Source: a virus
Virus record (IMG/VR): IMGVR_UViG_3300009185_000004
Span: 1 to 37,401 of that record
Length of the DNA stretch: 37,401 bases
Strand: one strand, 5' to 3'
Shown here: one piece after another, positions 27,203-27,277 of the stretch
Position numbering within the stretch: the first letter of the stretch is position 1
Layout of the letters: every line of letters begins with the position of its first letter
The notes under the pieces: model-generated
What the model was told of the DNA's origin: nothing
Database searches by the model: none
What the model saw: only the letters and a program-made list of their open reading frames with translations
Made by a program: the position numbers and the translations under genes

Positions 27203-27277
27203 CTATCGATTCATAACATACATTGTCACTTCGAAACCGAAGCGTAACTCGGTGACGCTAGGTTGAGTCCATTTCAT
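27203..27277 (-). CDS. pqqA: PqqA, pyrroloquinoline quinone precursor peptide
   Basis: A 24-residue ORF: opens [14 protein letters not shown], then GFEVTMY, ending NR. It matches the PqqA family along its whole length (M-x-W-x-x-P-x-x-T-x-LR-x-G-x-EVT-x-Y-x-x-NR), including Glu16 and Tyr20 spaced E-x3-Y, the two residues that PqqE cross-links and that become PQQ. Full ribosome binding site AAAGGAG (complement of 27284-27290) six bases upstream, its own promoter (27312-27340) and a terminator (27163-27184): a complete monocistronic unit. No pqqB, C, D or E is in the genome, so the peptide must be processed by host enzymes. PQQ serves periplasmic dehydrogenases such as methanol dehydrogenase; boosting them during infection is inferred. 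Confidence 0.93.
   Translation of the reverse strand: [24 protein letters not shown]

Follow-up and report, generated by a model that had tools for sequence, protein, structure and literature searches.

PqqA, the PQQ precursor peptide, encoded by phages of probable methylotrophic hosts

The window, i.e., the whole stretch of 37,401 nucleotides analyzed here (IMG/VR virus record IMGVR_UViG_3300009185_000004), encodes PqqA, a 24-residue PQQ precursor peptide, on its minus strand at positions 27203 to 27277 including the stop codon. The peptide scored 43 bits (E 4e-11) with the PF08042 profile over all 19 positions (cut-off, 21.1) and 40.4 bits with TIGR02107, the NCBI equivalog, over 21 of 21 positions (cut-off, 20), and no PqqA match was obtained from any of 14 control genomes. 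It is therefore apparent that the score is far beyond chance. The preliminary description had equated the peptide with PqqA from end to end and had made this assignment depend on a profile match; the match is strong and spans both profiles in full. The Glu and Tyr residues of the E-x3-Y pair are located in GFEVTMY. A Shine-Dalgarno sequence, AAAGGAG, was found on the minus strand (27290-27284) 6 nt before the ATG, as had been described, and an SD-like motif precedes pqqA at 142 of the 143 phage loci scored.

The gene had also been credited with a promoter and a terminator of its own. The terminator was confirmed. A hairpin, AAGCCAGG-TTTGTT-CCTGGCTT, followed by a T-rich tail was recognized by sequence and folding at 27163 to 27184 on the minus strand, and the 60 nt directly after the coding sequence have a folding energy of −17.9 kcal/mol. 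Similar hairpins occur in several close relatives. Because terminator-like hairpins were present 3' of pqqA at 88 of 144 phage loci compared with 10 in shuffled sequence, the pqqA terminator is solid. The promoter pair was likewise found, as a consensus match only (AAGACA-17-TATAAT, 10 of 12 positions; 27312 to 27340, minus strand). Over all pqqA phage loci, sites matching at 9 of 12 positions showed no excess (62 vs 59.7 in shuffles), and those matching at 10 of 12 were about twofold enriched (29 vs 13). The evidence for a dedicated promoter is thus weaker, and statistics across loci alone give it no support. The neighboring leftward structural unit has a perfect consensus promoter, TTGACA-17-TATAAT, at 26938 to 26966 on the minus strand (consensus match only). 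Since the leftward structural genes have this promoter of their own, the upstream pqqA gene appears to form a distinct unit. Another perfect consensus promoter (consensus match only) faces rightward at 27054 to 27082 on the plus strand, and its transcript would be antisense to pqqA; the pqqA terminator hairpin is also a terminator-like site in this direction. An Rfam search near the locus gave no match above gathering.

The terminase large subunit (TerL; 24579 to 25835, minus strand, PHROGs), the portal, the major head protein, DNA polymerase, a DnaB-like helicase, and RNR of the window all matched PHROGs, and the record is a virus record. The assignment of the window as a bona fide phage contig therefore holds. 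The first long gene of the leftward unit (26365 to 26913, minus strand) is in the place of the small terminase subunit by position, and its product had no Pfam or PHROGs match. In agreement with the preliminary description, the other pqq genes are absent: tblastn detected none of PqqB-E, PqqE included, in the window. Neither was a PQQ-dependent alcohol dehydrogenase detected there, including by TIGR03075, and the window thus differs from a Baikal-type methanol cassette, in which methanol dehydrogenase is encoded in the same phage genome. The OM43 phages MEP401 and MEP402 are distant relatives in replication genes (DNA polymerase, 55-59% identity; helicase, about 50%), and the terminase is not among the genes in common (best 6 of 13 listed). 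DNA polymerase A of the window is divided between two ORFs (34847-36004 and 36189-36914, within 34847-36914) separated by 184 bases; that of MEP401 is similarly split, with a small ORF in between.

In order to follow pqqA within this lineage, relatives were drawn from IMG/VR by TerL, the lineage marker, independently of pqqA, and were counted if the record extended at least 2.7 kb beyond the terminase on its upstream side. The same small ORF, which the preliminary description had proposed to look for in related phage contigs, was found at the syntenic place, on the same strand and directly upstream of the homologue of the 26365-26913 gene, in 20 of 26 such relatives. One additional relative (G040) has pqqA at another position, and a 35-kb relative (G028) has none. 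Thus, pqqA is not universal in this lineage. All 12 loci whose homologue of the 26365-26913 gene is at least 80% identical to that of the window have pqqA. No pqqA was found at L147 and L149, whose terminases are about 95% identical to that of the window and whose neighboring gene is 59-64% identical; the block seems to be exchanged by recombination. The window pqqA and those of close relatives differ mostly at third codon positions. The reading frame and the E-x3-Y pair, whose retention in related phages the preliminary description had singled out, are intact in every copy found, and likewise in the copies found through TerL only.

A tblastn search of 50,697 phage records with the window 24-mer (E up to 10) matched 12 records: nine methylophage isolates, one metagenomic phage from Manatee Spring, and two contigs of Acinetobacter phage MD-2021a. 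The isolates are Venkman, P19250A, MEP301, MEP401, MEP402, and four Melnitz phages, which represent five lineages with few genes in common (8 kb was compared for Melnitz). This count of nine covers the isolate records reached; MEP431-434, HIM624-A, phiMB624-A, Venkman EXVC038S, and the Methylophilaceae phages MG-MtP1 and RSA-MfP1 stand outside it. The Venkman terminase is about 50% identical to terminases of Pelagibacter phages, and no Pelagibacter phage was among the tblastn matches. None of the nine isolates or the Manatee Spring phage has an annotation labeled pqqA. No annotated feature covers the match in Venkman, P19250A (28085-28150), MEP301, MEP401, and MEP402, and an opposite-strand ORF was called in its place in Melnitz and the Manatee Spring phage, which bears out the earlier statement that the gene is too short for gene callers. 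The two Acinetobacter phage MD-2021a contigs were discarded. The inspected contig (CAKLQF020000010.1, 144 kb) has ppk, a bacterial pqqABCDE operon, and a dipeptidase gene in an 8-kb stretch (L134) and, although filed as phage, looks like bacterial chromosome.

IMG/VR was then scanned with a degenerate PqqA DNA pattern, and at least 120 contigs were found to have pqqA; all those listed encode a PqqA of 23 to 25 residues. The 160 phage loci compared comprise 142 distinct sequences. Their peptides count 22 residues from Trp to the stop without exception, and Trp2, Pro5, Glu9, Arg11, Gly13, Glu15, Thr17, and Tyr19 are invariant; Arg11 and the fixed length were no part of the search pattern. The pS and pN values for the 160 loci were 0.62 and 0.115, respectively, giving a pN/pS of 0.18, which serves as a guide only because most loci were preselected by a pattern that fixes many invariant positions and lowers pN. 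These results show that phage pqqA is under purifying selection; being a homologue of a host metabolic gene as well, it has two of the attributes of an auxiliary metabolic gene. No pqqB-E was found in any phage pqqA locus searched. All four orientation combinations of the flanking genes were seen, the commonest being that in which both are opposite to pqqA (42 of 116), in keeping with an independent cassette. When one shared ORF was required for clustering of the neighborhoods, a single giant cluster formed, whereas two shared ORFs gave 22 groups; because the outcome depends on this threshold, independent acquisitions were not counted from it.

Scanning of IMG/VR with a Pseudomonas-type PqqA pattern gave no contig. 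An alphaproteobacterial-type pattern gave four, of which two were rejected as chance matches and two encode real PqqA of the type MKWSAPIVQEVCVGMEVTSY[DE]SAEIDTFN, namely L313 (G333, 60117-60173 of a 265,895-base contig) and L316 (G334, 2718-2774). In both, pqqB-E are absent from the stretch examined. L316 also has a phage DNA polymerase. These two loci suggest that phages infecting another class of methylotrophs may share the trait.

The host range was considered from the bacterial side in the GTDB family of genome G070. pqqA was present in 149 of 150 genomes of this family, mostly in 2 to 12 copies; the streamlined genomes of about 1.3 Mb mostly have two or three, and G176 and G259 have twelve each. 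Among 41 sampled genomes, all matched the profile of the RuMP hexulose-phosphate synthase (hps), 40 over the cut-off, and 39 had PqqE over the cut-off; the family itself is linked to the window phage by inference. pqqB or pqqC adjoins pqqA in several host loci. For Methylophilaceae, 3 to 12 copies of pqqA have been reported, the remaining pqq genes usually being present as a single set (PMC4109929). RuMP, PqqE, pqqA copy number, and size range all fit an identification of this family as Methylophilaceae, and the host of the window phage is probably a methanol-eating bacterium, most likely of this family. In streamlined host genomes pqqA occurs as a tandem pair, and the peptide encoded by one of the two is found unchanged in 24 of the 160 phage copies. 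Where host and phage encode an identical peptide, their genes differ at silent sites, with a best match averaging 91.5% for the commonest shared peptide. The window PqqA is at most 82% identical to the sampled host copies, and the DNA pattern of its variant is absent from 187 genomes of the host family. On account of these two observations, the window variant is probably the product of some period of evolution in phages.

A 72-kb virus contig, IMGVR_UViG_3300025120_009955 (G311), was examined over the stretch 26000-45000 (L323). About 9 kb of it contain pqqA (contig 41887-41943) together with genes for a SoxYZ fusion (L323:16071-16790), the alpha subunit of a formate dehydrogenase (L323:9944-12784), and a PQQ methanol dehydrogenase (L323:7990-9864) whose combined TIGR03075 score is 608 bits. 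CsgG and HSP70 genes lie beside this group. G311 was the only one of 47 records, many of which are fragments, to have methanol dehydrogenase with pqqA. This grouping may be taken as support by association for a role connected with PQQ and methanol dehydrogenase.

One PqqA peptide is consumed for each PQQ formed, and PqqB, C, D, and E are catalytic and are not consumed. Only the substrate peptide would therefore be worth carrying, the enzymes being persistent. We consider it quite probable that pqqA is a phage auxiliary metabolic gene that provides precursor peptide for the host PqqB-E and supports methanol oxidation. In an infected methylotroph, the phage would produce PqqA from its own short transcription unit, and the host PqqD/PqqE, a protease, PqqB, and PqqC would convert the peptide to PQQ. 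The PQQ would be loaded on XoxF/Mxa-type methanol dehydrogenase, and methanol oxidation, the energy source of the host, would continue. If the phage shuts down host transcription, the PqqA peptide would be the first component to be lost, and pqqA alone would be the cheapest route to sustained PQQ synthesis. The logic of supplying substrate peptide only, put forward in the preliminary description, survived the tests that were run, with the identity of PqqA firm and the other pqq genes absent. An extract of Gluconobacter is described, in a passage cited in PMC9851590, as turning added PqqA peptide into PQQ. On the other hand, overexpression of pqqAB in Acetobacter increased PQQ by 29% compared with eightfold for pqqABCDE (PMC7936290), which makes it less sure that PqqA would be limiting in these hosts. 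Existing holo-enzyme might be enough for one lytic cycle, the window phage lacks a methanol dehydrogenase, and the hosts are already multi-copy for pqqA. An increase in PQQ and an advantage for the phage are what we infer.

The phage might instead raise PQQ for another use, such as redox protection, another quinoprotein, or release at lysis. Several dehydrogenases depend on PQQ, and a methanol dehydrogenase gene is missing in 46 of the 47 pqqA records, many of them fragments. However, the distribution of pqqA tracks methylotroph hosts: the Pseudomonas-type pattern was found in none of the IMG/VR contigs, and the matches among the 50,697 phage records were confined to methylophages, a single metagenomic phage, and a bacterial operon filed as phage. 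Such a use is unlikely. A decoy, by which phage PqqA would occupy host PqqD/PqqE and lower or redirect PQQ synthesis for host takeover, is decidedly improbable. Excess production could be feasible for so short and strongly translated a peptide, the gene of which has its own terminator. A decoy could, however, dispense with the features of a good substrate, whereas Glu15 and Tyr19 never change across the 160 phage loci; moreover, many phage copies are exactly the host peptide, and G311 pairs pqqA with an enzyme that requires PQQ.

The frame and the terminator remain intact in diverged phages, and together with the pN/pS value this opposes the view that pqqA is a functionless fragment of a host gene, kept for integration or by chance. 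Host gene ends do serve as att sites in many phages, and pqqA is multi-copy in the hosts. Nevertheless, genes that encode one and the same peptide in phage and host have diverged at silent sites (the 91.5% average given above), and the pattern of the window variant is missing from the 187 host-family genomes. Such a passenger or attachment-site origin is scarcely credible and was rejected on the basis of silent-site divergence and selection.

Returning to the supply of precursor peptide, the distribution over nine isolates and five lineages suggests that these viruses keep the methanol-based energy supply of their hosts going. We lean slightly toward the broader proposition that supplying PqqA, and thereby feeding a consumed precursor to host enzymes, is a near-universal, convergently acquired trait of obligate-methylotroph phages that has been overlooked because the gene has only about 25 codons. 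As Melnitz and Manatee Spring show, genes of this size escape both gene callers and surveys of auxiliary metabolic genes. A phage-host arms race may bear on the up to 12 pqqA copies in Methylophilaceae. Methanol oxidizers of the Methylophilaceae (OM43, Methylopumilus) are abundant in the sea and in fresh water, and if a viral gene feeds their key cofactor, phage infection would be linked to C1 carbon flux. Because pqqA is located in cultured phage-host pairs, i.e., Venkman and Melnitz with H5P1, MEP301 with FZCC2181, and MEP401/402 with FZCC0133, its role is testable at once. The medium in which OM43 is grown already contains 1 nM PQQ (PMC9004378).

A phage-encoded PqqA has been described before, in the Lake Baikal Methylophilaceae virus VP_266, by Coutinho et al. 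(2020), who proposed support of methanol oxidation (PMC7678222); P19250A was said there to encode none of the auxiliary metabolic genes of that paper, yet it contains the unannotated pqqA given above. In a 2026 study, the auxiliary metabolic genes listed for sediment also include viral pqqA, pqqD, and pqqE (PMC13188868). The breadth of pqqA and its presence in cultured methylophages appear to be unreported: no report was found in the open-access literature, to which the search was largely confined, and the papers examined on Venkman, Melnitz, and MEP401/402 do not describe pqqA. Like the window, whose host is presumed, the Baikal case (VP_266/VP_139) is one of PqqA encoded by a virus of Methylophilaceae. 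It concerns a T4-like metagenomic population, both representatives of which have methanol dehydrogenase, VP_139 having radical SAM proteins as well, whereas the window is a 37-kb contig with pqqA alone. The pqqA genes of cultured methylophages encode the same peptide family as the window, with their own SD and without pqqB-E at the loci searched, but belong to other phage lineages and lie at other positions. Host pqqA of Methylophilaceae is of the same peptide family, multi-copy, and often stand-alone (PMC4109929). The commonest host PqqA peptide is that of many phage copies, in contrast to the more divergent window copy. Cyanophages carry psbA, the gene of D1, which is a consumed component of the energy metabolism of the host. 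psbA is a protein subunit gene and pqqA is the gene of a cofactor-pathway substrate, and by our hypothesis the two would be alike in that a phage renews what its host consumes.
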